Under the pieces are notes generated by a model. That model was not told the origin of the DNA. It ran no database searches and saw only the letters and a program-made list of their open reading frames with translations. Positions 45,666 through 63,269 of a DNA stretch of 64,000 bases are shown one piece after another. Source of the DNA: Bacillota bacterium (GTDB lineage Bacteria; Bacillota; Negativicutes; CTSoil-072); the NCBI GenBank assembly GCA_017889545.1, contig JAGFZV010000001.1:186001-250000 (forward strand), in the 5' to 3' direction. The translations under genes and the position numbers were made by a program. Positions within the stretch are counted from its first letter, which is position 1. Every line of letters begins with the position of its first letter.

Positions 45666-46667
45666 CTACATCGCGGCCATGATCTTTCGTACCGATACCA
45701 TGAGATTCCCAAATTTCTCCGGTTTCAGCGACTGATCGCCATCACAGAGCGCTTTTTCCGGCTGCGGGTGGACTTCGATCATCAGGCCGTCTGCACCAAC
45801 CGCCATCGCCGCCTTCGCCAACGGCTCCACCATCGACCATTTGCCGCAGGCATGACTGGGATCCACGATGATCGGCAAGTGACAGACCTCCTTTACTGCC
45901 GGTATAATACTGATGTCAAGCGTATTTCGCGTATAATTGTCAAACGTCCGGATTCCCCGTTCGCATAAAATAATATTGGAATTTCCTCCGGCGAGAATAT
46001 ATTCGGCCGCCATGAGAAATTCTTCCAACGTGGCGCTCATTCCCCGTTTCAGCAAAATCGGCTTCCTGCTCTTACCCGCTCGTTTCAGGAGAGAAAAGTT
46101 CTGCATGTTGCGCGTACCAATTTGAATGAGATCGGCGTATTCTTCAATCAGGTCAAAGGTTTCTTCATCCATCACTTCGGTCACAAACGGCAGGCCGCTC
46201 ACCTCTCTGGCTTGCGCCAGCATCTTCAAGCCCTCTTCGCCCGACCCTTGAAAACTGTACGGCGATGACCGCGGTTTATACGCTCCGCCCCGCAGCATTG
46301 TGGCGCCATGCTGCTTAACAAGCTTTGCCGTATCAACCATCTGTTGTTCACTTTCCACCGAACACGGTCCGGCGATAATCAACTTATGCCCGCCGCCGAT
46401 TTGGCAGTTGCCGATCGTAATCACCGTATCTGCCGGTTGAAAGGTTCGGCTGGCCATTTTGTAAGGCTGTCTGACCCGCATCACTTTTTCAATCCCCGGA
46501 TGGGTTGCGATGCTTTCAAGCTCAGCATCGCCCATCCCACCGGTTATCGCAAAAACAATTTGCCTTTCCCCGCTGACAGGGATAACTTCGACTTTTATTT
46601 CAGCCAATTTCCTGTGTACTGTTTCTATTTCTTCGCCAAAAGCGTCCGGCCTCATCATAATCAGCAT
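45666..46667 (-). CDS. aroF: 3-Deoxy-7-phosphoheptulonate synthase (DAHP synthase)
   Basis: A 333-residue type I-beta DAHP synthase with an N-terminal regulatory domain (about 1-70), condensing phosphoenolpyruvate and erythrose-4-phosphate for aromatic biosynthesis. Catalytic motifs: [34 protein letters not shown] and [10 protein letters not shown]. Last gene of the trp cluster, 60 bp after trpA, so it should fall under the same T-box. The ATG at 46667 follows GGGGGAAC. No strong terminator is visible after it. Confidence 0.94.
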
Positions 46668-46727
46668 TGGCAGTTCCCCCTTCCGCCTTTTTTCACCGGT
46701 AATTGGTACACGCTGCAAACAGCAAAA

Positions 46728-47543
46728 TCACATCCGGCTCGCCATGTTGGCTTTCAAGCTTCCGACAAATTCGCCTACTCTGTCAGGCAAATCAAGCTTT
46801 CCCAAGTGCCGTTCCACTGCTTTAATCACTGCGCTGCCCACAATAACCCCGTCAGCCAATTGCGAAGCTTGACCGGCCTGCTCCGGCGTAGAAATCCCAA
46901 ACCCTACTGCCAACGGAAGTTCGGTCTGGCTGCGCACCAGGCCCAAAAATCCTGCGAGGCCGCTGTCCAGCTTATCCTGAGTTCCGGTTACTCCGGTAAC
47001 TGATACACAATAGAGGAACCCACGCGAGGCACTGGCAATACGGGCAATCCGTTCCGGCGGTGTTGTCGGTGCAACCAGCATGATTACATCTACACCGCAA
47101 CGCTCGGCTGCTAAACGCAATTCCTCACTTTCTTCCAGCGGCAAATCAGGTATAATCAGACCATCGACCCCTGTTCGACGGCACTGATCAAGAAAATGCG
47201 GTTCCCCATACTGCAATATCGAATTATAATACACCATCAAAATCAAAGGAATGCCTGTAGATTGGCGCAAAGAAGCTGTTAAGCCAAAAACGGCTTCAAT
47301 CGTGATGCCATTGTGCAGAGCCCGCAGAGAGGCTCGCTGGATAACCGGTCCATCCGCTACCGGATCCGAATACGGAATACCGAGTTCAATCATATCCGCT
47401 CCGTTTTTTTCCATGGAAAGCACTAATTCCTTCGTCGTGTTCAAATCCGGATCGCCGGCGGAAATATAAGTTATCAGTGCTTTGCCGCCGGATTGCCTGC
47501 ACTTTTGAAATTGCCTGCCAATTGCATTTTCCCGTTGTTCCAT
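46728..47543 (-). CDS. trpA: Tryptophan synthase alpha chain
   Basis: A 271-residue TIM barrel that cleaves indole-3-glycerol phosphate to indole. Catalytic Glu and Asp lie in MIELGIPYSDPVADGPVIQ and GLIIPDLPLEES. SVTGVTGTQ and GFGISTPEQA form the phosphate site. It starts one base after trpB. Confidence 0.96.
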   Translation of the reverse strand: MEQRENAIGRQFQKCRQSGGKALITYISAGDPDLNTTKELVLSMEKNGADMIELGIPYSDPVADGPVIQRASLRALHNGITIEAVFGLTASLRQSTGIPLILMVYYNSILQYGEPHFLDQCRRTGVDGLIIPDLPLEESEELRLAAERCGVDVIMLVAPTTPPERIARIASASRGFLYCVSVTGVTGTQDKLDSGLAGFLGLVRSQTELPLAVGFGISTPEQAGQASQLADGVIVGSAVIKAVERHLGKLDLPDRVGEFVGSLKANMASRM

Positions 47544-47544
47544 A

Positions 47545-48729
47545 TCATTTCGCCTCCTGATAAGCAGCTACCTGTTCCACATCTTTGTCGCCCCGGCCGG
47601 ACAAGCAAACCGCCATAATATGCTCCGCAGGCAATTGCTTCGCCTGCTTTACCGCATAAGCCACAGCATGGGCGCTTTCCAGCGCCGGGATAATTCCCTC
47701 CGTGCGGGCCAGCAGATAAAAAGCGTCCAATGCCTCCTGGTCGGTTACAGCTGCATATTCCACCCGGCCTGCGTCTTTTAAATAGGAATGTTCCGGACCG
47801 ACGCCTGGATAATCCAGTCCGGCCGAGATGGAATGCGCCGGCAGGATTTGGCCGTCATTGTCCTGCAGCAGATAGCTCATAGCGCCATGCAGCACGCCTT
47901 TTGAGCCAAGCGATAACGTGGCTGCATGCTCACTGGTATCCAATCCTTTGCCTGCTGCTTCTACACCGCAGATCTTAACCGTGCTGTCTTCCAGAAAAGG
48001 GTAGAACATTCCCATTGAATTGCTCCCGCCGCCGACGCAAGCCACCAGACTGTCCGGCAAACGCCCCTCGATTTCCAGCATTTGTTTGCGGGTTTCATCG
48101 CCGATCACCCGTTGGAAATCCCGGACCATCGCCGGGTACGGATGCGGTCCGACAACCGACCCGATCACGTAAAATGTGTCCCGCACATGAGCAACCCAAT
48201 GCCGGAGCGCTTCATTCGTCGCATCCTTGAGTGTGCGGCTGCCGCTGGTCACCGAGACAACCTCGGCCCCCAGCATCTTCATGCGAAAGACATTGAGGGC
48301 CTGCCTGGCGACATCCTCTTCACCCATAAACACTTTGCACTCCATGCCGAATAAGGCCGCTACCGTTGCCGTGGCGACACCGTGCTGTCCTGCGCCTGTT
48401 TCGGCGATAATACTTTTCTTCCCCATCCGCCGGGCCAGCAAAGCCTGGCCAATCGTATTGTTGATTTTATGAGCCCCGGTATGGTTTAAATCTTCCCGTT
48501 TCAGGTATATTTTCGCACCGCCGGCGTGTTTGGTTAATTTCTCCGCAAAATAGAGCAACGATGGTCTGCCGATATATTGCGTAAAATAAAAGGCCAATTC
48601 TTTCTGAAAATCCGGATCCTGCTTTGCCTGATGATAACAAGCCTCTAATTCATCTAACGCTGGAATCAGCGTTTCCGGAACATACCGTCCGCCAAATTCC
48701 CCATAACGTCCTTTTTTGCTACTGACCAT
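47545..48729 (-). CDS. trpB: Tryptophan synthase beta chain
   Basis: A 394-residue PLP enzyme joining indole and serine to make tryptophan. The PLP lysine is in [13 protein letters not shown], catalytic Glu in [10 protein letters not shown], and the phosphate loop in [10 protein letters not shown]. TrpB1 type, starting [15 protein letters not shown]. The ATG at 48729 follows GGAGGTGG and overlaps the trpF end by 11 bp. Confidence 0.97.
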
Positions 48730-49339
48730 AGTATTCCCACCTCCGAATCGTTGTAATAAATGTTCGTATCTTATCCTGATCTTTATTCCCACCGGTTTCT
48801 ACGCCGCTGCTCACATCAACGCCAAACGGGCACACCGCTTTTATCGCTGCCAAAACATTGTCCGTCTTCAACCCGCCGGCCAAGATGATCCGCTGCCCGC
48901 GTCCCGCTCTGACAGCCAAATCCCAGGGGAAAGCATGCCCGGTTCCACCTTTTTCTTTCGGATGGTAGCTGTCCAGCAACAACGTATGCTGTCGGTAATC
49001 CGACAGCCCCTCAAGCGACTGTTCATCCCGCATCTGAACTCCTTTGATTACTTTGCGCGCAAACCGGGAACAATACTCCGGTGTTTCTTGTCCGTGAAAC
49101 TGCAGCGTGTCAATACCGCAAAATCCGGCTATTTCCTTGACTTCTTGTTCATCCGCATCGACAAAAACGCCGACTTTGCTGATAAACGGCGGCAGCGCCC
49201 GGCATATTTCCCGGGCAATATCCGGACTGATCTGTCTTTTGCCGGCAGCAAAAACCATCCCAACGGCATCCGCTCCAGCCTCCGCCGCAGCCATCGCTGA
49301 CTCAACATCCTGCAAACCGCATATCTTTATTCTGATCAA
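48719..49339 (-). CDS. trpF: Phosphoribosylanthranilate isomerase
   Basis: A 206-residue TIM barrel performing the Amadori rearrangement in tryptophan synthesis. Motifs: KICGLQD (catalytic Cys), [19 protein letters not shown] and [10 protein letters not shown] with GVDVSSGVE. Begins with TTG overlapping the trpC stop by 4 bp. Confidence 0.95.
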
Positions 49340-50118
49340 GCTCGCTCACCCGCCAGTTCCCGGACCTTTTGCCCCGGATCCGGACTGCGCATCAGCATTT
49401 CGCCCACCAGAACCGCATTGACCCCATAAGCCGCCAACCTGTCGATATCTTCCCTTGTACTGATGCCGCTTTCGCTGACCAGGATCCGGCCCGGAGGAAC
49501 ATATTGCGCCAATTCACATGTGTTTGCCAAATTGGTTTCAAACGTATATAGGTTTCGGTTATTAATGCCAATCACTTGCGCACCGCTTTCCAGTGCAATC
49601 TCGAGTTCGACTCTCGTATGCGCTTCGACCAAACAATCCAGTTGAAGCTCGGCCGCTTGTTTCAAAAACCATTCCAGCTTTTGCCGGGGCAGCGCCGCCA
49701 CGATCAGCAACACCGCGTCCGCTCCCAACGCACGGGTTTCAACCAGTTGGTATGTATCGATGATAAAATCTTTGCGCAGCAATGGTTTATCCGTCACTGC
49801 CCGCGCGATCGGCAAAAATTCCGGTTTTCCTTTGAAAAACCGCTGCTCGGTCAGCACCGATATCGCGGTCGCCCCATTTTTTGCATAGCTGTCAATGACC
49901 TGTTTGGCTGACAAGTCTGCTCGGATCACCCCCTTAGATGGCGATGCCTGCTTAAACTCGGCAATCAAGCGGACGGCCCCCTTGCCGGACAACGCCTTTG
50001 CAAAGCCGCGCGTGCCGTCAAGCTTCTCAACTTGATCATACAATTCTTCTATCGGCCTCTCTTGCTTCTTCAATTCTAACTCCCGGCAGGTATGGGCGAT
50101 AATTTCGTCCAAAATCAT
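49336..50118 (-). CDS. trpC: Indole-3-glycerol phosphate synthase
   Basis: A 260-residue TIM barrel converting CdRP to indole-3-glycerol phosphate. Active-site motifs: IAEFKQASPSKG, PLLRKDFIID, LVEAHTRVE, GINNRNLYTFE and VSESGI. The ATG at 50118 sits right after the trpD stop, with AAGGGGG upstream. Confidence 0.96.
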   Translation of the reverse strand: MILDEIIAHTCRELELKKQERPIEELYDQVEKLDGTRGFAKALSGKGAVRLIAEFKQASPSKGVIRADLSAKQVIDSYAKNGATAISVLTEQRFFKGKPEFLPIARAVTDKPLLRKDFIIDTYQLVETRALGADAVLLIVAALPRQKLEWFLKQAAELQLDCLVEAHTRVELEIALESGAQVIGINNRNLYTFETNLANTCELAQYVPPGRILVSESGISTREDIDRLAAYGVNAVLVGEMLMRSPDPGQKVRELAGERA

Positions 50119-50119
50119 C

Positions 50120-51136
50120 TTACTGCAGCCCCCTTGCCGCAAACGTTTGCAAAGCCCGCAATTTGGCCAATGCCCGGCCGCTGTCGATGCTGTCCGCCGC
50201 CAGCACTACGCCGCCTTTGAGGTCTGCAGCTTTGTTCCCGGCTACCAATGCGGCTGCCGAATTTAAAAGCACCACATCCCGCCGGGGCCCTTTTTCTCCC
50301 TGCAAAACCGCCAGCACAATTTTACTGTTGTCCGCAGCCATGCCGCCGGCAATGGATGATGCCGCCGCCCGCTGCAGGCCGAAATCTTCCGGTTCAATAT
50401 AATACGTATCCATCCTGCCCTTTTTCACTTCCGTAATTTTGGTGGAGCTGCAAATTGAAATTTCATCCAATCCGTCCATCCCATGAACCACCAATGCATG
50501 TTCCGTACCCAGTCGCAACAAAACTCCTGCCAGCATTTCCGTCAGTTCAGCTTGAAACACTCCCAGCACCTGTCCCTGCGCTCCTGCCGGGTTGGTTAAC
50601 GGCCCGAGGATATTGAATATTGTCCGAATACCGATCTCCCGGCGCGGGCCTACCACATTCTTCATTGCCTGATGAAAAACCGGAGCAAACAAGAAACCAA
50701 TCCCGATCTGCCGCAAACTTTCTTCTACTGCCTGTGCATTCAGGTTGATATTAATCCCCAGGGCTTCCAATACATCCGCACTGCCGCATTTGCTGGAAAC
50801 CGACCGGTTGCCGTGCTTGGCAACCGCAAGTCCTGCACCGGCAGCTACAAACGCCGCTGTAGTCGAAATGTTGAACGTATCCTTCTTATCGCCACCGGTA
50901 CCGCAGGTATCAACTACCTGCGACAAAGAGTTTACCTGAGTCGATTTTCGACGCATGACCCGGGCGCAGCCCGCAATCTCATCTACGGTTTCACCCTTCA
51001 TGCTCAGCGCCGTCAACATGCCGCCAATTTGCGCCGGCGTGGCGCGGCCGCCCATGATCGCTTCCATCATCACTTCCGCTTCCTGTTCACTTAGGTTTCT
51101 TCCCCGGACAATCTTTTCAAAAATCGGCTGTAACAT
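50120..51136 (-). CDS. trpD: Anthranilate phosphoribosyltransferase
   Basis: A 338-residue enzyme adding PRPP to anthranilate. Motifs: VDTCGTGGDKKDTFNIST (PRPP loop), KHGNRSVSSKCGSADVLEALG and GPRREIGIRTIFNILGPLTNPA. Shares one base with the trpG stop (TAATG). Confidence 0.97.
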   Translation of the reverse strand: MLQPIFEKIVRGRNLSEQEAEVMMEAIMGGRATPAQIGGMLTALSMKGETVDEIAGCARVMRRKSTQVNSLSQVVDTCGTGGDKKDTFNISTTAAFVAAGAGLAVAKHGNRSVSSKCGSADVLEALGININLNAQAVEESLRQIGIGFLFAPVFHQAMKNVVGPRREIGIRTIFNILGPLTNPAGAQGQVLGVFQAELTEMLAGVLLRLGTEHALVVHGMDGLDEISICSSTKITEVKKGRMDTYYIEPEDFGLQRAAASSIAGGMAADNSKIVLAVLQGEKGPRRDVVLLNSAAALVAGNKAADLKGGVVLAADSIDSGRALAKLRALQTFAARGLQ

Positions 51137-51708
51137 TAGCTGCGGCCTCCCTGTAAAAAATTTTTTAATAACTGCTTGCCTGGACCGGTAAGAATGGATT
51201 CAGGATGAAATTGAACCCCTTCAACCGGATATTTCTTATGACGCAGACCCATTACTATCCCATCCTCTGTATAAGCTGTAATGGCTAAGCACTCAGGTAT
51301 TGTTTTCCTATCGACAATCAACGAGTGATAACGGGCAGCGGAAAACGGTCCGCCGATGCCTTGATAAATCGTCTGCCCGTCATGGTAAACTGTCGATACC
51401 TTGCCATGCATCGGTACTTCGGCTCGCCGCACTACTGCGCCAAATACTTCGCCGATCGCCTGATGCCCCAGGCAAACACCCAAAATTGGCAGGTGCGGCC
51501 CACACAGCTTGATGACTTCGCCGGAAATACCGGCTTGCTGCGGTGTTCCCGGGCCGGGAGAAATCAAAATATGGGAAGGCTTCCGCTCTTTTAACGCTTC
51601 AACAGTGATGCAGTCATTCCGATAAACGGAAAGCTCGGCTCCTAATTCTCCTAAATATTGCACCAGATTATACGTAAACGAGTCGTAATTATCAATCACC
51701 GCGATCAT
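51136..51708 (-). CDS. trpG: Anthranilate synthase glutamine amidotransferase component
   Basis: A 190-residue class I amidotransferase supplying ammonia to TrpE. Cys in ILGVCLGHQAIGE and the His-Glu pair in GVQFHPESILT form the triad; ISPGPGTP is present. It may also serve 4-aminobenzoate synthesis, since no separate pabA is seen. Overlaps trpE by 4 bp. Confidence 0.95.
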   Translation of the reverse strand: MIAVIDNYDSFTYNLVQYLGELGAELSVYRNDCITVEALKERKPSHILISPGPGTPQQAGISGEVIKLCGPHLPILGVCLGHQAIGEVFGAVVRRAEVPMHGKVSTVYHDGQTIYQGIGGPFSAARYHSLIVDRKTIPECLAITAYTEDGIVMGLRHKKYPVEGVQFHPESILTGPGKQLLKNFLQGGRS

Positions 51709-53165
51709 CGCGTTCCCTCCTCCGTAATGACCAAAGCCTGCAACAGCGCCTTGGCCTTATTCAACGATTCTTCATACTCCGCTTCCGGCGACGAGTCGGC
51801 AACCACTCCGCCTCCCGCCTGGACATGCATCCGGCCATCAGCAATGACAAACGTGCGAATGGTGATGCAAGTATCCATATTGCCGGAGAAACCGAGATAA
51901 CCGACCGCACCGGCATAAGGTCCGCGTTTTGTTTTTTCCAGTTCACGGATAATCTCCATGGCTCTGACTTTTGGCGCGCCCGATACGGTTCCGGCCGGAA
52001 AACAGGCCGTCAGTGCGTCGATCGCATCTTTGCCTGGCTGCAGCTGCCCTTTCACCGAAGAAACAATATGCATCACGTGGGAATATTTTTCGACCGCCAT
52101 CAAGGTCGGCGTCTGGACGGTTCCATAGACCGATACTTTGCCGATATCGTTTCGTCCCAGGTCAACTAGCATGATGTGCTCCGCCCGTTCTTTTTCGTCA
52201 TCGAGAAGTTCTTTAGCCAGGAGCTCGTCTTCAGAAGAATTCTTGCCCCGGCGCCGCGTTCCGGCAATCGGCCGGGTTTCCACCATTCCATCATCCAGCC
52301 GGACAAGCAGTTCAGGGGAAGAACCGACGATCTGGATGTCGCCAAAGTTCAGATAGTACAAGTAAGGGGATGGATTGAGCGACCGTAGCGTCCGGTAGAC
52401 TTCAAACGGCGGTACCTGCAGCGCAGCCGACAGACGCTGCGATGGCACGACCTGAAAAACATCGCCTGCAGCAATGTATTCCTTGGCGCGCAGTACCATA
52501 TCCATATATTCTTCCTTGGTGCGATTGGAAACAATTTTGGCTGGTTCACAAGGAGCGTACGTTTGCAGCCGCACCGGCTCCGCCAGTTTTTTCTTAACAT
52601 CCTGCAGCGTTTGCACGCCCCGCCGATAGCAAGCGTTTATATCTCCTTCGATCCGGACGCAGGCAATCATTTGCATCGAATGTTTCAAGTGGTCGAATAC
52701 AATGACTACTTCCGGAAACAGGAATGCACCATCCGGTAAATTCAATTCATCTTTCTCGGCCGCAGGAACTCTTTCCAAGTTTTCCACCATATCAAAACCA
52801 AAATAGCCAACCACTCCGCCATAAAATCGCGGCAAGCCTGGTATTTCTGCCGGCAAAAATTCTTGCAGCAGCGACCGCAGCAGGACAAATGGATTTCCGT
52901 TTAATTGTTTTACCGGTCCGCCATCCGTTACCACCGTTTCCTTGCCACGCACAACTACCGTCTGAAACGGACGCAGCCCGATGAACGAAAATCGTCCGAG
53001 ATGTTCTCCGCCATCCACGCTTTCCAGAATAAAGCCGCTATTTTCGCCAACCAGTTTGCTGTAGACAGAGATTGGTGTTTCCGTATCCGCTTTAATAACC
53101 TCATAAATTGGAACCAAATTATTTTGTACGGCTAATTTGCTAAATTCTTCTTGTGAAGGAATCAC
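51705..53165 (-). CDS. trpE: Anthranilate synthase component I
   Basis: A 486-residue chorismate-using enzyme. ESVDGGEHLGRFSFIGLRP near the N-terminus forms the tryptophan-feedback site. The C-terminal domain has PSQRLSAALQVPPFEVYRTLRSLNPSPYLYYL-type sequence, PIAGTRRRG, DLGRNDIGKVS and GTVSGAPKVRAME. Starts with GTG behind AAGGAGG, directly after the T-box terminators. First gene of trpEGDCFBA-aroF. Confidence 0.96.
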   Translation of the reverse strand: MIPSQEEFSKLAVQNNLVPIYEVIKADTETPISVYSKLVGENSGFILESVDGGEHLGRFSFIGLRPFQTVVVRGKETVVTDGGPVKQLNGNPFVLLRSLLQEFLPAEIPGLPRFYGGVVGYFGFDMVENLERVPAAEKDELNLPDGAFLFPEVVIVFDHLKHSMQMIACVRIEGDINACYRRGVQTLQDVKKKLAEPVRLQTYAPCEPAKIVSNRTKEEYMDMVLRAKEYIAAGDVFQVVPSQRLSAALQVPPFEVYRTLRSLNPSPYLYYLNFGDIQIVGSSPELLVRLDDGMVETRPIAGTRRRGKNSSEDELLAKELLDDEKERAEHIMLVDLGRNDIGKVSVYGTVQTPTLMAVEKYSHVMHIVSSVKGQLQPGKDAIDALTACFPAGTVSGAPKVRAMEIIRELEKTKRGPYAGAVGYLGFSGNMDTCITIRTFVIADGRMHVQAGGGVVADSSPEAEYEESLNKAKALLQALVITEEGTR

Positions 53166-53210
53166 GGTATTGGTCCTCCTTTATAATGAAAAATTATGAT
53201 TAGAAAAAAA

Positions 53211-53335
53211 ATAAACCTTCCATCCTTCAAAAAAGGACGAAAGGTTCAACTTCCGCGGTACCACCCTTGTTAGGCCTAAAGGCCCCACTTTACAGTACGG
53301 GATTCAAAACACACCTGTCAATCGAGCTATCGTTC
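53211..53335 (-). ncRNA. Second, truncated T-box module (stem III-like + antiterminator + terminator, no stem I)
   Basis: The T-box sequence AACAAGGGTGGTACCGCGG (53254-53272 region) and a terminator at 53214-53246 with a T-run repeat the downstream half of the first element. Only about 80 nt separate it from the first terminator. The upstream part (CCCGTACTGTAAAG-GGGCC) aligns with the segment before the first T-box sequence, and there is no specifier stem. It could add a second read of tRNA charging. Confidence 0.75.
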
Positions 53336-53348
53336 CCTCCGAAAAAAC

Positions 53349-53610
53349 AAAAAATCTTCCGTCCTGATAAGGACGAAAGATTACTCTTCCGTGGTACCAC
53401 CTTGTTAGGCATGATAGCCTCGCTTTGAGGTACGGGATGACTCCGATACCTTGTCTCTTACGTAACGGTGAGACATTCCGGCTAAGCCTACTATGACTTC
53501 GGTTAGCAGCTCCGGGGCCCATTCACCGAAAAGATACCTACGGAGCTTACACTACCCCCCGTTCGCTGAAAAGCTCGTTTTTCGCCTACTCTTCCCCATC
53601 AACGCTTTTG
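53349..53610 (-). ncRNA. T-box riboswitch, tryptophan-specific, upstream of trpE
   Basis: A full T-box leader. AGAGTA (S-turn motif, 53587-53592) and GTGTAAGCTC (terminal-loop type) mark stem I. TGG in GTGAATGGGCC at 53519-53521 is the likely Trp specifier. The antiterminator sequence AACAAGGTGGTACCACGG (about 53389-53406) and a competing terminator (53353-53382, then a T-run) complete it. Uncharged tRNA-Trp would favour readthrough into trpEGDCFBA-aroF. Confidence 0.9.
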
Positions 53611-53633
53611 TGGTTCGATATGAAATTATCTAC

Positions 53634-53662
53634 AGAATAACATTGAATACAGTATTTTGCAA
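53634..53662 (-). promoter_or_regulatory. Sigma-A promoter of the trp operon
   Basis: TTGCAA-N17-TATTCT on the minus strand, just upstream of the T-box leader. Confidence 0.55.
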
Positions 53663-53668
53663 GAATTT

Positions 53669-54352
53669 TTACAACCGTTTCGCCAGAGAAATCTTTTCTT
53701 TTGATTTGGTCCAAAGATTCAACCAAAAAATGAGCGAAAATGTAATCAAACTAATGATTAGCACATAGATGCCAGCCAACGTCAAATCATTCGATTCCGC
53801 CGCGAAATAAATCGCCAGCGGCAAGGTTTGCGTTTTTCCCGGAATATTTCCGGCAACCATAATCGTCGCCCCAAACTCGCCAAGCGCCCGGGAAAAAGAT
53901 AAAATCAAGCCTGCCAATAAGCCTTGCCAGGCAAGCGGCAGCGTAATAGTCAAAAAAACCCGCCATTCACTGGATCCCAGCGTTCGCGCCGCTTCTTCCA
54001 ACGTATGGTCCACATTTGCAAAGGCCGCTTTGGTGCTTTGGTACATCAGCGGAAAAGCGACCACTGTTCCGGCCAGGATCGCTGCATAGGGAGAAAAGAT
54101 GATCTGCACCCCGAAATATTCGCCTAATAATTTCCCCACAGGCCCCTGTTTGCCGATTAAAAGCAACAGCAAAAAACCAGTCACAACCGGAGGAAGAACC
54201 AATGGCAGAACAAATAATGCCTCCACCGCCGCCTTGCCGGTAAATTCCTTTTTCTGCATGATGTATGCCGCAGCGACGCCAAAGAGAAATACGAATACCA
54301 GCGATATGGTTGCTACCTGAACGGACAACAGTACCGGATGCAGATCGATCAA
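53669..54352 (-). CDS. modB: Molybdate ABC transporter permease
   Basis: A 227-residue inner-membrane permease with about five helices and the ATPase-contact EAA loop LEEAARTLGSSEWRVFLTITLPLA. LSFSRALGEFGATIMVAGNIPGKTQTLP is characteristic of ModB. Starts with TTG. It follows modA by 40 bp. No modC ATPase gene is in the window; the trp promoter lies directly behind. Confidence 0.93.
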   Translation of the reverse strand: MIDLHPVLLSVQVATISLVFVFLFGVAAAYIMQKKEFTGKAAVEALFVLPLVLPPVVTGFLLLLLIGKQGPVGKLLGEYFGVQIIFSPYAAILAGTVVAFPLMYQSTKAAFANVDHTLEEAARTLGSSEWRVFLTITLPLAWQGLLAGLILSFSRALGEFGATIMVAGNIPGKTQTLPLAIYFAAESNDLTLAGIYVLIISLITFSLIFWLNLWTKSKEKISLAKRL

Positions 54353-54392
54353 ACAAACTCACCCTTCGTAATTGTTTTTTAGAAGCAGCAGA

Positions 54393-55193
54393 TCATTTGC
54401 TCATAACAAAGCCGTATTTTTCAAAAACCGCTTTGCTCTCTTCACTGTGTAAATACGCTAAAAATTCTTCTGCCGCCTTATGATTTTTGGTTCCTGCCAA
54501 AATGGCAGCCGGATAAACGATCGGCTGGTGCGATCCGTCGGGAGCGCTGGCGGCAACTTTCACTTTGGAACTGGCTACCGCATCCGTCTTATACACAAAT
54601 CCCGCTTCTGTGTTGGCTGTTTCCACATAAGAAAGAACCGTTCGAACGTCCTTGGCAAAGACCGCCTTATCTTTTAAGGTTTCCCACAGACCAAGTTTTT
54701 GCAAAGCTTGTTGTGTGTATTGCCCGGCGGGGACAGTCGCTGTCTCTCCAACGGCAATTTTCTGTACAGCGGTTGTCGCCAGATCTTCAAATTTCGTTAT
54801 TCCGAGGCCGGAATCCTTCGGCACAATTAAAACAAGTTTATTTTCCACCAAATTTTTTCTCGTACCCTTGTCAACTAAATTTTTGGCCTCTAAATCATTC
54901 ATTTGCTTCGGCGCCGCGGAAATAAAAATATCAGCCGGGGCGCCCTGTTCGATTTGCCGCTGCAGGGACCCGGAAGCTCCCAAATTGTAGACAAGTTTCA
55001 CATTCGGCGCTTTGGCCTGATATTTCGCTTGAATTTCCATCAGCGCATCCTTTAAGCTGACGGCTGCCGATATATTCAGTTCAACCGACTGAGCGGCCGG
55101 TTTGGGCTGTTCCGGTTTCGTTCCTCCACAGCCTGCCATAACCAATGAAATCATAACCATACCCGCGATCAACAACATCCTGATTTTTTGCAC
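54393..55193 (-). CDS. modA: Molybdate ABC transporter substrate-binding lipoprotein
   Basis: A 266-residue binding protein with a lipobox (VMAGC, Cys22). Oxyanion-binding features are SAAVSLKDALMEIQ, YNLGASGSLQRQIEQGAPADIFISAA and VGETATVPAGQY, typical of ModA (molybdate or tungstate). First gene of modAB, divergent from the DNA-binding/PBP-like regulator. Confidence 0.94.
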   Translation of the reverse strand: MQKIRMLLIAGMVMISLVMAGCGGTKPEQPKPAAQSVELNISAAVSLKDALMEIQAKYQAKAPNVKLVYNLGASGSLQRQIEQGAPADIFISAAPKQMNDLEAKNLVDKGTRKNLVENKLVLIVPKDSGLGITKFEDLATTAVQKIAVGETATVPAGQYTQQALQKLGLWETLKDKAVFAKDVRTVLSYVETANTEAGFVYKTDAVASSKVKVAASAPDGSHQPIVYPAAILAGTKNHKAAEEFLAYLHSEESKAVFEKYGFVMSK

Positions 55194-55239
55194 ACAACAT
55201 CTCCCCTTCCAAACAGTTTCAAAAAAATTATATTTCCCT

Positions 55240-55275
55240 CAAAAACAACTAAACTAAACTAAAACTAATAAAACA
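55240..55275. repeat. ACTAA-rich direct repeats between modA and its divergent regulator
   Basis: Four to five close repeats of (A)ACTAA within about 35 bp in the 190-bp divergent intergenic region. They may be the binding site of the adjacent HTH regulator. Confidence 0.4.
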
Positions 55276-55383
55276 CAACATAATGCCAATGGTGTAATTA
55301 TAGTATTTATTGTAATATGAATGCAAGAGGTTTGTGCAATTTATCTTTGAAAATTTCCCTAAAATCAGAATCGAGGTGTCTAC

Positions 55384-56316
55384 ATGACAACTGTTACTTC
55401 CTACACACCGGAAGAAGTCGCAACTATTTTAAAAATATCACGCTTTACGGTTTATGAAATGATCAAACGCGGAGATTTGACAGCGTACCGGATCGGACGA
55501 AAAATGCGCATCGAGGCGCCCGACCTGGAGGCCTATATCAAAAAGTCCAAAGGACAGTTTCCTTCCCAGCAGCACTCCCAACCGGCAGCAATCACACCGC
55601 CGGCAAGCCAGGAAGCTCTTATCATCTGCGGCCAGGATATTATTTTGGATATATTAACACGTCACTTGGAGAAAGAAATGCCGCAAATCCGTTTCTTACG
55701 CAATTATATCGGCAGCATCGATGGCCTGCTGGCATTATACCGGGGTGCAGCGAATGTGGTGACAACGCATCTTTGGGACAGCGATACGGATACCTACAAT
55801 GTTCCTTATGTACGCCGATTGCTGCCCGGTCATAAGACGCTGATCATCAATCTTGTTTATCGGATCGAGGGATTCTATGTCGCCAAAGGAAACCCCAAAA
55901 ACATCGCAGCCTGGCAGGATCTGGCCCGGCAAGATGTCCGTTTTGTAAACCGCGAGCGAGGTTCCGGCGCCAGGGTTTTGGTTGATGAACAGTTGCGAAT
56001 TCAGCATATCGATCACGCCGAAGTCAATGGCTACAATCATGAAGAAGCCAGCCATCTTGCCGTCGCCAGCTGCGTGGCCAGGGGCGACGCGGATGTTGGC
56101 GTGGGAATTGAAAAAGCCGCTTTGCAGGTAAGCGCAATTGATTTCATTCCCTTAAAAAAAGAGCGCTATGATTTAGTCATCCGAAAAGAAGATGCGGAAC
56201 GGCCGCAATTCAAGGCCATGCTGTCGATTTTGCAATCGCAGGCCTTCCGCAATGAAATTGCCGGCATGGGCGGATATGATTTGTCCCAGACCGGAAAAAT
56301 CATGGCGGAAACTTGA
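55384..56316 (+). CDS. HTH (excisionase/MerR-like) + periplasmic-binding-like one-component regulator
   Basis: A 310-residue cytosolic protein. Residues 5-55 form a short excisionase-type HTH (YTPEEVATILKISRFTVYEMIKRG and YRIGRKMRI). After a Gln/Pro linker, residues 75-305 form a PBP-like ligand domain with HLWDSDTDTYNVPYV, NRERGSGARVLVDE and HLAVASCVARGDADVGVG. Such proteins occur next to molybdate/tungstate transporter genes and are thought to sense the oxyanion or molybdenum cofactor. Divergent from modA; likely regulates modAB. Confidence 0.9.
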   Translation: MTTVTSYTPEEVATILKISRFTVYEMIKRGDLTAYRIGRKMRIEAPDLEAYIKKSKGQFPSQQHSQPAAITPPASQEALIICGQDIILDILTRHLEKEMPQIRFLRNYIGSIDGLLALYRGAANVVTTHLWDSDTDTYNVPYVRRLLPGHKTLIINLVYRIEGFYVAKGNPKNIAAWQDLARQDVRFVNRERGSGARVLVDEQLRIQHIDHAEVNGYNHEEASHLAVASCVARGDADVGVGIEKAALQVSAIDFIPLKKERYDLVIRKEDAERPQFKAMLSILQSQAFRNEIAGMGGYDLSQTGKIMAET

Positions 56317-59512: not shown

Positions 59513-60436
59513 TCAGTAATTTACTTTATCAATGCCTTTTAATTTCAGGATTGCGCGCGCCTCATCCGGGGTCGCCGGCTCCTGGCCAAGTTCCTTGGCG
59601 ATGCGGACAATTTTGCTTACTTGTTCCGCACTGCTCTTCGCCATAACACCTTTTTCAATATACAAGTTATCTTCCAGCCCGACCCGTACTCCGCCGCCCA
59701 TCAGCAAAGCCGCTGTACACATCGCCATCTGACTCCGCCCGGCAGCGCAAACCGACCAGGAAAAATCACCGATTTGTTCTTTGGCCGTCCGGACCAAATG
59801 CATCAAGTTGTCTACCGTCGCCGGCGCACCGCCCAAAATACCAAGGACGAACTGCAGGTATACCGGTTTTTTCAAATAACCGCGTTCAATCATAAATGCG
59901 ACGTTATTGATCATGCCGAGATCATATATTTCCAATTCCGGTTTGGTCTCATTTTCATTAAAGATGCCGCAAAATTCCCGCATCGTTTTAAATGTATTCG
60001 GGAAAATAAAATCTTCGGTCATGCCCAAATAGGCCGGTTCCCATTCATGCTGGAAATCTTTCTTGCCCGCCAGTACCTGAAACAACGCAAAGTTGATCGA
60101 ACCAAAATTAAACGATCCTAATTCCGGTTTAAAGGTCCGTACTGTGGCCACCCGCTGTTCCGCCGTTTGTCCAAGACCACCGCCGGTCGTCAGACACAAA
60201 ATCATATTGCAGCGTTTTTTCACGCTGGTCACTACTTCCCGAAACAATTCCATGTCAGCCGAAGGAGCGCCATTTTCCGGATTTCGCACGTGAATGTGCG
60301 CCACTGCCGCACCGGCTTCATAAGCGCGCACCGCCTCATCCGCAATCTGCTGCGGAGTGATTGGAAGATATGGACTCATTGACGGAGTGTGTATCCCCCC
60401 CGTAATTGCCGCTGTCACAATTACCTTGTTCTTCAT
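59513..60436 (-). CDS. Beta-keto acid cleavage enzyme (BKACE/Kce family), 307 residues
   Basis: A 307-residue TIM-barrel Zn enzyme. His47 and His49 in VAHIHVR and the late GLEDNLY glutamate are the expected metal ligands; TTGGG and FVLGILGG complete the core. BKACE enzymes convert a beta-keto acid plus acetyl-CoA to an acyl-CoA and acetoacetate; 3-keto-5-aminohexanoate and dehydrocarnitine are known substrates. It carries insertions relative to the second copy at 62.4 kb (about 34 residues longer), so the two may have different substrates. Preceded by a sigma-54 promoter. Confidence 0.88.
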   Translation of the reverse strand: MKNKVIVTAAITGGIHTPSMSPYLPITPQQIADEAVRAYEAGAAVAHIHVRNPENGAPSADMELFREVVTSVKKRCNMILCLTTGGGLGQTAEQRVATVRTFKPELGSFNFGSINFALFQVLAGKKDFQHEWEPAYLGMTEDFIFPNTFKTMREFCGIFNENETKPELEIYDLGMINNVAFMIERGYLKKPVYLQFVLGILGGAPATVDNLMHLVRTAKEQIGDFSWSVCAAGRSQMAMCTAALLMGGGVRVGLEDNLYIEKGVMAKSSAEQVSKIVRIAKELGQEPATPDEARAILKLKGIDKVNY

Positions 60437-60561
60437 TCAAATTCCTCCCTGTCCTCTCAATTTCAAATCCCATTTTGTTCCTTTCTTTTTTGTTTCTTGG
60501 TTGTTGTCCCGATTCCTCCCTGTTTTTGGATTTTAAATTAAGTTTCTCTTCTCTAGATACA

Positions 60562-60579
60562 ATGCATTTTTCATGCCAA
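60562..60579 (-). promoter_or_regulatory. Sigma-54 promoter of the 307-residue kce gene
   Basis: Minus-strand TTGGCATGAAAAATGCAT, GG-N10-GC. Expected start near 60553. The divergent activator gene starts about 115 bp away on the other strand. Confidence 0.85.
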
Positions 60580-60692
60580 CTGTCAGATCCACTTCCTTAA
60601 TAATCTGATTGAGTAGAAACAATTGCATTTCAAAGATGTTTCCGCTATGATGGTTTTGAGAACGATAGAATATTTTGCGGGAAGTGACTTGC

Positions 60693-62249
60693 TTGATTAA
60701 AACAGAAGATCAGTTCAGTTCTATTGCTTTTTTACTGGATTTAATCCAGCAGCTCGGTTCACCTGATTACGACTTGGTCCAACAACGATCGCAGATCCGG
60801 GAAGGCTTGCAAAAAACCCTGCACGAGATGGAACAGGCAAAAGATTTTGATTTTCGGGAAATCGGCGATCATCTTTACGATGGCATCTACATCGCGGACG
60901 GCAATGGCAAAACACTTTACGTCAATAGAGCCTATACGAGGATTACCGGCATCAAGCCGGAAGAAATTCTCAATAAATATGTAAGCGACTGCGAAAACGC
61001 CTGTTTGTATAAAAATGCGGTTACACCCGAGGTCATCAAACATAAGCAGCAAGTCAACGCCATGGGGGAAAGTCTGCGCAACGGCAGCAAAATGCTGATT
61101 TCCGGCAACCCGATTTTCGATGACGCCGGCAATGTAAAAAAAGTAGTGGTGGTTGACCGGGACATCACCGACCTTCTCACCATGAAATCGGAACTCGAAG
61201 CCTCCCAGCAAAAAATGAAAGCAGTCGAAAAAGACCAATACCGTACAAAACAAGAAATTGAACATTTGCGAAGATTTCATCTGAATAAAAACTTAATCGG
61301 CGATAGCCCGGAAATTCAAAAAATCGGTAAAATGATTGAACAAGTCGCCGCTTTGGACGTCACCGTTCTGATTACCGGCGAAACCGGTTCCGGCAAAGAA
61401 GTTGTCGCCAATGAAATTTACTTTAACAGCAAACGTCCCAACGGGCCGTTTATCAAGGTAAATTGCGCCGCCATTCCAGCCAACCTCTTGGAAGCAGAAC
61501 TATTCGGCTACGAAAAAGGCTCTTTTACCGGCGCCAGCAGCGGCGGCAAACTCGGAATGTTTGAATTGGCCGACAAAGGAACCTTGCTGTTGGATGAGAT
61601 TGGCGAAATGTCTTTGGAACTGCAATCCAAACTGCTGCGGGTCATTCAGCACAAGGAAATCACCCGCATTGGCGGTACGAAGCCAATTGCGCTCGATATC
61701 CGCATCATCTCATCCACCAACTGTGATCTTTTGGAGCTCGTAAAAAAAGGAAAATTTCGGGAAGACCTTTATTATCGCCTCAACGTATTCCCCATTCAGC
61801 TCCCGGCGCTGCGCCAAAGAGCAGACGATATCGAGCTATTGGCCCGCCATTTTTTGGATGTTTACAATACAAAGTACGGGACGATTACCGTGATTGAAAA
61901 ATCGGGGTTTGAACTCCTGAAAGAATATGACTGGCCGGGAAATATCAGGGAACTGCAGAATATCATCGAACGCCTGGTGATCGTCGCCGGTCAGGGTTCG
62001 ATCATCAGCGCCGAACAAATCGGCGCCTTGTTGAGCATTGATCCGTACTACACCGAATTGGTTCACAAAGAATTGGGTCTGAAAGAAATTGTGGAAAATG
62101 TCGAGCGAAAAACGATTGAGAAAGTCTTGTCGTTGCATAAAAGCACCCGTAAAGCGGCAAAAATTTTAAAAATCGATCAATCGACCATTGTCAAAAAAGC
62201 ACAACGCCTTGGAATCTGTTTGAGTGATGAAAAAACGCATCAGTACTGA
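60693..62249 (+). CDS. PAS-domain sigma-54-dependent transcriptional activator
   Basis: A 518-residue one-component enhancer-binding protein. An N-terminal PAS domain (about 55-160, [22 protein letters not shown]) is followed by a coiled linker and an AAA+ domain with GETGSGKE, the sigma-54 loop as GSFTGA (276-281) and LLLDEIGE. A short C-terminal HTH reads [22 protein letters not shown], TyrR-like. TTG at 60693 is the likely start; a frame to 60675 exists. It sits between two kce genes that both have -24/-12 promoters, so these are its probable targets. Confidence 0.9.
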
Positions 62250-62304
62250 TGATTTTTTTCATCGGCAATGAATCAAGCACCATTATGATAATTTTCTGCT
62301 TTTT

Positions 62305-62344
62305 AAACAGGCATCTGATGAAAAAAATCATCAGATGCCTGTTT
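62305..62344 (+). terminator. Terminator after the PAS sigma-54 activator
   Basis: A 17-bp stem (62305-62321 with 62328-62344), A6 loop and trailing T-run. Confidence 0.9.
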
Positions 62345-62365
62345 TTTGCAAATTTGATTGTGATC

Positions 62366-62387
62366 ATTGCTGACCATTTTCAGCAAT
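62366..62387. promoter_or_regulatory. Palindrome next to the second kce promoter
   Basis: ATTGCTGA-N6-TCAGCAAT, perfect 8-bp arms, ends 7 bp before the -24 element. This is closer than usual enhancer sites, so a repressor or a proximal activator site is possible. It is not repeated at the first kce promoter. Confidence 0.5.
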
Positions 62388-62392
62388 TCCTA

Positions 62393-62410
62393 TTGGCATA
62401 TAACTTGCAA
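62393..62410 (+). promoter_or_regulatory. Sigma-54 promoter of the 273-residue kce gene
   Basis: TTGGCATATAACTTGCAA, GG at 62395-62396 and GC at 62407-62408 with 10 bp between. Expected start near 62419, 29 nt before the start codon. Confidence 0.9.
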
Positions 62411-62447
62411 TAGATACAAAGCAAAATAACGATTGAGGTGATACTTT

Positions 62448-63269
62448 TTGGACAAGACAATCATTACCGTAGCAGTAACAGGCGCTTTCCCAACGAAGGA
62501 GCACAATCCGAACATTCCTTTGACGCCAAAAGAAATCGCAGCTGATGTTGTAGAATGCTGGAAAGCCGGGGCCGCGGTCGCCCATCTGCACATGCGCGAC
62601 GACGAAGGCAAAGGCACCATGAACAAAGACAAGTTTAAAGAAACGGTAGAACTCATCCGGGCCCAATGCGACATTGTATTGAACCTGACAACGTCCGGTG
62701 ATCTCTTTGCAACTGACGAAACTCGGATGGCCCATGTAATTGAACTGAAACCGGAAATGGCTTCTTACGACGCGGGTTCCATGAATTGGATGCACAGCGG
62801 CCTATTCCTTAATCCACCGCAATTCTTAGAGAAACTCGGCAAAGTCATGTTGGAAAACAACGTGAAACCGGAAATTGAAATTTTTGACGCTGGAATGGTG
62901 TACAATTCCTTCTACTACATCAAAAAAGGAGTCCTGGCAACACCGGCGCATTACCAGTTCGTATTGGGCGCCGACGGTGGAACCGCCGCAACAGTAGAAA
63001 ATCTGGTGTATTTGAAAAGCTTGATCCCGTCGGAAGCAACCTGGTCTGCATTGGGGATCGGCAAAGGCCATCTGCCAGTCCTGTTCGCCACCTTAGCCTT
63101 GGGCGGACACGTCCGGGTCGGTATGGAAGACAATGTTTATTATGCCAAAGGCCGTCTGGCAAAATCGAATGCTGAATTTGTCGCCCGGGCAGCCCGTCTG
63201 ATCGGCGAAGCAAACAAAACAGTCGCTACCCCGGATGAAGCCCGTAAAATTTTAGGTCTGAAAAAATAA
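62448..63269 (+). CDS. Beta-keto acid cleavage enzyme (BKACE/Kce family), 273 residues
   Basis: A 273-residue BKACE enzyme. His46 and His48 in VAHLHMR and Glu in GMEDNVY are the metal ligands; FDAGMVYNSFYY and FVLGADGG line the active site. It should convert a beta-keto acid plus acetyl-CoA to acetoacetate and an acyl-CoA. The start is a TTG behind GAGGTGATAC. The next gene, 21 bp downstream, is a hydroxyacid-type dehydrogenase that could supply the keto acid, as carnitine dehydrogenase does for dehydrocarnitine cleavage. Confidence 0.9.
   Translation: MDKTIITVAVTGAFPTKEHNPNIPLTPKEIAADVVECWKAGAAVAHLHMRDDEGKGTMNKDKFKETVELIRAQCDIVLNLTTSGDLFATDETRMAHVIELKPEMASYDAGSMNWMHSGLFLNPPQFLEKLGKVMLENNVKPEIEIFDAGMVYNSFYYIKKGVLATPAHYQFVLGADGGTAATVENLVYLKSLIPSEATWSALGIGKGHLPVLFATLALGGHVRVGMEDNVYYAKGRLAKSNAEFVARAARLIGEANKTVATPDEARKILGLKK

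Follow-up and report, generated by a model that had tools for sequence, protein, structure and literature searches.

Vitreschak et al. (2008, RNA 14:717) reportedly describe a T-box structural class with duplicated terminator-antiterminator elements; such leaders resemble the one described here in having one stem I and a repeated gate, and their anatomy is possibly identical. Passages of a 2020 review name partially tandem T-boxes as an existing lineage-specific feature whose mode of action is called unknown (PMC7583486); our leader fits this feature, of which those passages analyse no example. A 2025 survey of contiguous riboswitches treats trp tandems as complete units (PMC12452182). Such fully tandem T-boxes before Bacillota trp operons likewise place two termination decisions ahead of the operon, but they carry a stem I and a specifier in each unit, whereas the second unit here has neither stem I nor stem II. 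We found no experiments on partially doubled T-boxes in the literature consulted. Measured against the canonical transcriptional T-box (Rfam RF00230), the leader has the stem I, II, IIA/B and III, T-box, antiterminator and terminator of that model and adds a downstream copy of the F-box, stem III, antiterminator and terminator. It belongs to the already described partly doubled class, and we claim no new kind.

The leader lies 5′ of trpE, with all of its elements on the minus strand, in a 64,000-nt stretch of DNA from a Bacillota bacterium, called the window here. Reading 5′ to 3′, stem I with a UGG specifier is followed by stem II, stem IIA/B, stem III and an antiterminator/terminator (module 1), and then by a second F-box, stem III, antiterminator and terminator (module 2):

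53634..53663, minus strand: possible promoter, TTGCAA (53658-53663), 18 nt, TATTCT (53634-53639); weak and assigned by eye, a consensus scan having called none
53510..53611, minus strand: stem I, the sole copy in the leader; RF00230 positions 1-103, 87-89% identity in two orthologous leaders
53519..53521, minus strand: specifier UGG (Trp) within GUGAAUGGG, from the RF00230 alignment
53432..53509, minus strand: stem II with S-turn (CCGAA...AGUAGG), stem IIA/B region and first F-box-like CCCGUACC, from the RF00230 alignment; 82-89% identity among orthologues
53404..53431, minus strand: first copy of stem III, from the Rfam scan of module 1; 72-93% identity among orthologues
53369..53403, minus strand: antiterminator 1, AAGG-[UGGUACC]-ACGGAAGA/UCUUUCGU-CCUU; about -9.9 kcal/mol, perfect nine-pair core
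53393-53399, minus strand: T-box 1 bulge UGGUACC, by sequence reading
53341..53382, minus strand: terminator 1, AUCUUUCGUCC/GGACGGAAGAU and U-tract, from folding and a terminator scan
53304..53340, minus strand: spacer between the gates, without stem I or II, from the Rfam scan of module 2, folding and orthologue comparison
53268..53303, minus strand: second F-box-like CCCGUAC (53296-53302) and second stem III (GGGGCC-UUUA-GGCCU), by sequence reading and Rfam; 55-65% identity
53233..53267, minus strand: antiterminator 2, AGGG-[UGGUACC]-GCGGAAG/CUUUCGU-CCUU; about -7.4 to -8.2 kcal/mol
53258-53264, minus strand: T-box 2 bulge UGGUACC, by sequence reading
53203..53246, minus strand: terminator 2, AACCUUUCGUCCUU/AAGGAUGGAAGGUU and U-tract, from folding and a terminator scan

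In both modules a UGGN bulge is fixed beside helix A1, and an antiterminator competes with a terminator. The calculated energies of terminators 1 and 2 are -15.4 and -18.4 kcal/mol, and terminator-like sites number three against 0.6 expected, both strong terminators (53382-53353 and 53248-53212) being among them. The two bulges lie 135 nt apart, and ~77 nt separate the end of the terminator 1 U-tract from T-box 2, close to the ~80 nt given in a first-pass annotation of this DNA. The leader is probably a transcription-terminating Trp T-box riboswitch with a duplicated expression platform, its two gates standing in series behind one recognition arm.

Scanning the whole leader with Rfam returned a single RF00230 match from stem I to T-box 2 (53230-53611; 111 bits, E 1.4e-24), above the Rfam gathering threshold of 93. 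In the alignment stem I, stem II and the F-box region each appear once before a jump of ~140 nt or more to T-box 2; the stretch jumped, which is taken as an insert, holds module 1's own complete T-box sequence and terminator. Scanned alone, module 1 (53340-53660) is a complete T-box that covers RF00230 positions 1-219 with 108.4 bits, and module 2 (53195-53385) matches the 3′ part of the model only, 5′-truncated and without stem I, at 34.6 bits. This covariance-model search had been proposed in the first-pass annotation, and its scans of the whole and of the halves bear out the description given there of a full T-box with a TGG specifier followed by a second copy of stem III, T-box and terminator.

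Stems I and II are both absent from module 2, as is the 5′ partner of stem IIA/B. A stem I fold in the spacer had been set beforehand as grounds for abandoning the single-stem reading, and the outcome was negative: the module 2 Rfam scan (53195-53385), which includes the spacer, found no stem I, the spacer folds no better than shuffled sequence, and its identity among three orthologous leaders is 27-41%, against 87-89% for stem I. Because the spacer is unconserved in the orthologous leaders, no stem I is concealed between the modules, and a hidden copy was rejected on these three counts. Two full tandem T-boxes do occur elsewhere, for example 5′ of a leuA-like gene in the same genome, but that the second unit here should carry a divergent, short stem I in the spacer is scarcely credible, since the stem I match is absent, the sequence is too short, and the spacer is neither conserved nor unusually foldable. 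A second antiterminator and terminator follow the first, and the second unit, which matches the 3′ half of the model only, has no stem I or specifier of its own.

The specifier loop, GUGAAUGGG, places UGG directly 5′ of a purine and the closing stem, and GAATGGGC around the specifier is kept in the orthologous leaders L110 and L111. A tRNA-Trp whose anticodon is CCA is encoded in the genome; its fully read copy has the 3′ end GCCA, for which pairing with the UGGU bulge is possible with one G-U pair. The UGG specifier, the CCA anticodon and the downstream trpE thus agree with one another, and the gene order 3′ of the leader is trpEGDCFBA followed by an aroF-like gene:

51705..53165, minus strand: trpE, first gene under predicted control; Pfam Anth_synt_I_N/Chorismate_bind on a 71%-identical orthologue, and tblastn
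45666..51708, minus strand: trpG, trpD, trpC, trpF, trpB, trpA and an aroF-like DAHP synthase, from ORF lists with names by sequence recognition

A TrpE search led to two further Negativicutes families, with TrpE of 76% and 71% identity, and in both the gene is preceded by a two-module leader; the second of these orthologous leaders equals the Lucifera butyrica leader (L094) over the stretch compared and in Rfam score. The L110 leader was retrieved via TrpE alone, without use of the second-T-box motif, and keeps T-box 2 (UGGC), antiterminator 2 and terminator 2. Among the three leaders the antiterminator/terminator is 78-92% identical in module 1 and 75-85% in module 2, and the sequence 3′ of terminator 2 is 3-43% identical. 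At the level of sequence, module 2 is a conserved island flanked by two unconserved stretches. Module 1 is more alike across species (0.78-0.91) than modules 1 and 2 are within a species (0.73-0.77), and module 2 compared across species gives 0.71-0.82. These values fit a duplication that would predate the split of the three lineages, the contrast being small for module 2.

T-box 2 of L110, ~95 nt 5′ of trpE, reads UGGCACA in place of UGGNACC; its C, in contrast to the U of T-box 1, would form a full pair with a G discriminator base. Given this UGGCACA, the constraint on module 2 may be weaker. The altered T-box, like the 55-65% conservation of the second F-box and stem III, is what one might expect if module 2 were a decaying duplicate that serves mainly as an extra, tRNA-insensitive terminator and so reduces basal expression. 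We regard such decay as unlikely: antiterminator 2 is retained in all three families and co-varies class-wide, UGGC would still be compatible with a G discriminator base, should L110's own tRNA carry one, and a constitutive second terminator would leave the operon largely silenced.

For the class-wide comparison 84,980 species genomes were scanned for pairs of T-box sequences at a spacing of 102-132 nt, which gave at least 80 stretches, the collection search demanding GGUGGUACC in both modules. Matches from the genome scan and the class search, less chance matches and near-duplicates, left at least 63 non-redundant loci (about 60 leaders of like anatomy), for the most part from Firmicutes, a few of them doubtful (e.g. 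L040). Among the matches listed, the doubles occur in Peptococcaceae/Desulfotomaculum relatives, Syntrophomonas, Negativicutes including Veillonella, Alicyclobacillus, Companilactobacillus, Acholeplasmatales and others, and the genes 3′ of them include DAHP synthase with chorismate mutase, branched-chain-type substrate-binding proteins, AMP-binding enzymes, trpE, sodium:solute symporters, aminotransferases, ketol-acid reductoisomerase and leuA. Rfam called one full T-box per double in those sampled, and in the window RF00230 takes in the complete additional antiterminator/terminator as inserted sequence and returns one match (53230-53611). Partial doubles escape simple hit counts because the model absorbs the extra gate in this way.

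Since the antiterminator's 5′ strand takes no part in the terminator, how well it matches the 3′ strand carries information, and we exchanged the 5′ strands among the 63 loci. A perfect nine-pair antiterminator core forms in module 2 at 43 of 63 loci, where swapping gives 15.6 on average and at most 23, and in module 1 at 46 of 63 (swapped mean 23.4, maximum 30), in 200 permutations that ignore kinship. A terminator-like hairpin stands behind module 1 at 61 and behind module 2 at 60 of the 63 loci, against 21-30 in shuffles (21-24 for module 2). Across 48 loci antiterminator 2 is slightly more stable than antiterminator 1 (p 0.026, uncorrected), and neither terminator energies nor T-AT gaps differ between the modules. 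By these calculated values neither gate is systematically weaker, and the predicted energies give no sign of one dead gate. A systematic stability gradient driving hand-off between the gates was rejected, terminators and gaps showing no difference and the window running opposite to the slight advantage of antiterminator 2.

In the mechanism that we propose, stems I and II would choose tRNA-Trp, the UGG specifier reading anticodon CCA, and the 3′ end of uncharged tRNA-Trp would pair with the UGGU bulge of T-box 1, allowing RNA polymerase to pass terminator 1. A second charge test of like kind would follow ~135 nt on, with trpE reached only by transcripts that pass both. With charged tRNA the leak of the operon would be the product of two leaks, and lower basal expression and a steeper response would therefore be expected. 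Series gating with tighter control appears to be the best reading of the double gate; together with the sharper response and the hand-off of a single tRNA, it is what we infer for this leader. The sequence data themselves show the anatomy, the Trp specificity elements, the retention of the two gates among orthologues and the co-variation of antiterminator 2.

As module 2 has neither stem I nor stem II, it must use either the leader's stem I or the acceptor end only. The bulge of T-box 2 and its antiterminator are intact, and a second uncharged tRNA might be bound by its acceptor end alone, without stem I. This seems improbable, however, because four pairs to a CCA end common to all tRNAs confer no specificity, and in single-molecule work on the glyQS T-box no binding was seen for a tRNA whose NCCA end was intact but whose anticodon was mismatched (PMC6197855). 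The first-pass annotation had offered both routes: its anatomy and Trp specificity stand, on the Rfam match and the UGG specifier, and its acceptor-end-only route is disfavoured by this glyQS result.

We lean tentatively, at somewhat short of an even chance, towards gate 2 being served by the tRNA already on stem I, so that one tRNA-Trp would be checked twice for charging as its 3′ end leaves T-box 1 and docks on T-box 2. Alternatively, another tRNA could replace the first on the same stem I. RNA polymerase transcribes 135 nt in only some seconds. On the glyQS T-box an anticodon-only complex lives for ~4 s and broken NCCA contacts re-form within ~0.35 s (PMC6197855); hand-off is kinetically plausible because such lifetimes would allow the tRNA to stay on stem I while its 3′ end shifts. 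Uncharged tRNA, once fully bound, can form a very stable complex with a T-box (PMC6197855), which counts against hand-off to T-box 2.

The two near-palindromic T-boxes might also pair with one another after readthrough to form a single combined switch. A 10-nt complementarity (GUGGUACCAC/GUGGUACCGC) is present in the window and in L111, and the pairing seems to form in the full-length minimum-energy fold, but the complementarity shrinks to 5 nt in L110 and the palindrome arises simply from the UGGUACC motif, making this switch very improbable. Hand-off on one stem I, if true, would make the leader a riboswitch that proofreads sequentially, with two gates served by one sensor. This compact, conserved Trp example, its orthologues from three families and ~60 relatives offer defined constructs with which to ask whether one bound tRNA is interrogated twice and whether the response is sharpened.

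Variations on the double gate were also seen. Program assignment of the specifier is ambiguous across the doubles; GAAGUUC recurs in many Peptococcia and Syntrophomonas loci and suggests a candidate Phe specificity for them. Four leaders of one Negativicutes genus (L019, L020, L021 and L099) have three T-box antiterminators ~70 nt apart before a DAHP-synthase-like gene (~1500-1700 in L019), with an obvious terminator at the last only and the module 1 terminator absent. The tandem 5′ of the leuA-like gene in the genome of the window (L011 1501-2040; G000:C38:195516-196049) consists of two complete, nearly identical units with apparent CTC/Leu specifiers.

The genes around the leader in the window were read by eye. 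Upstream of it, at 53669-56316, the genes look like an ABC permease and a binding protein of the molybdate/tungstate type and a fusion of an excisionase-like HTH to a periplasmic-binding-like domain, and the permease gene ends only ~58 nt before stem I. Further away, at 59513-63269, a sigma-54-type regulator whose N-terminus is PAS-like sits between two ORFs that are similar to each other and resemble beta-keto-acid cleavage enzymes.
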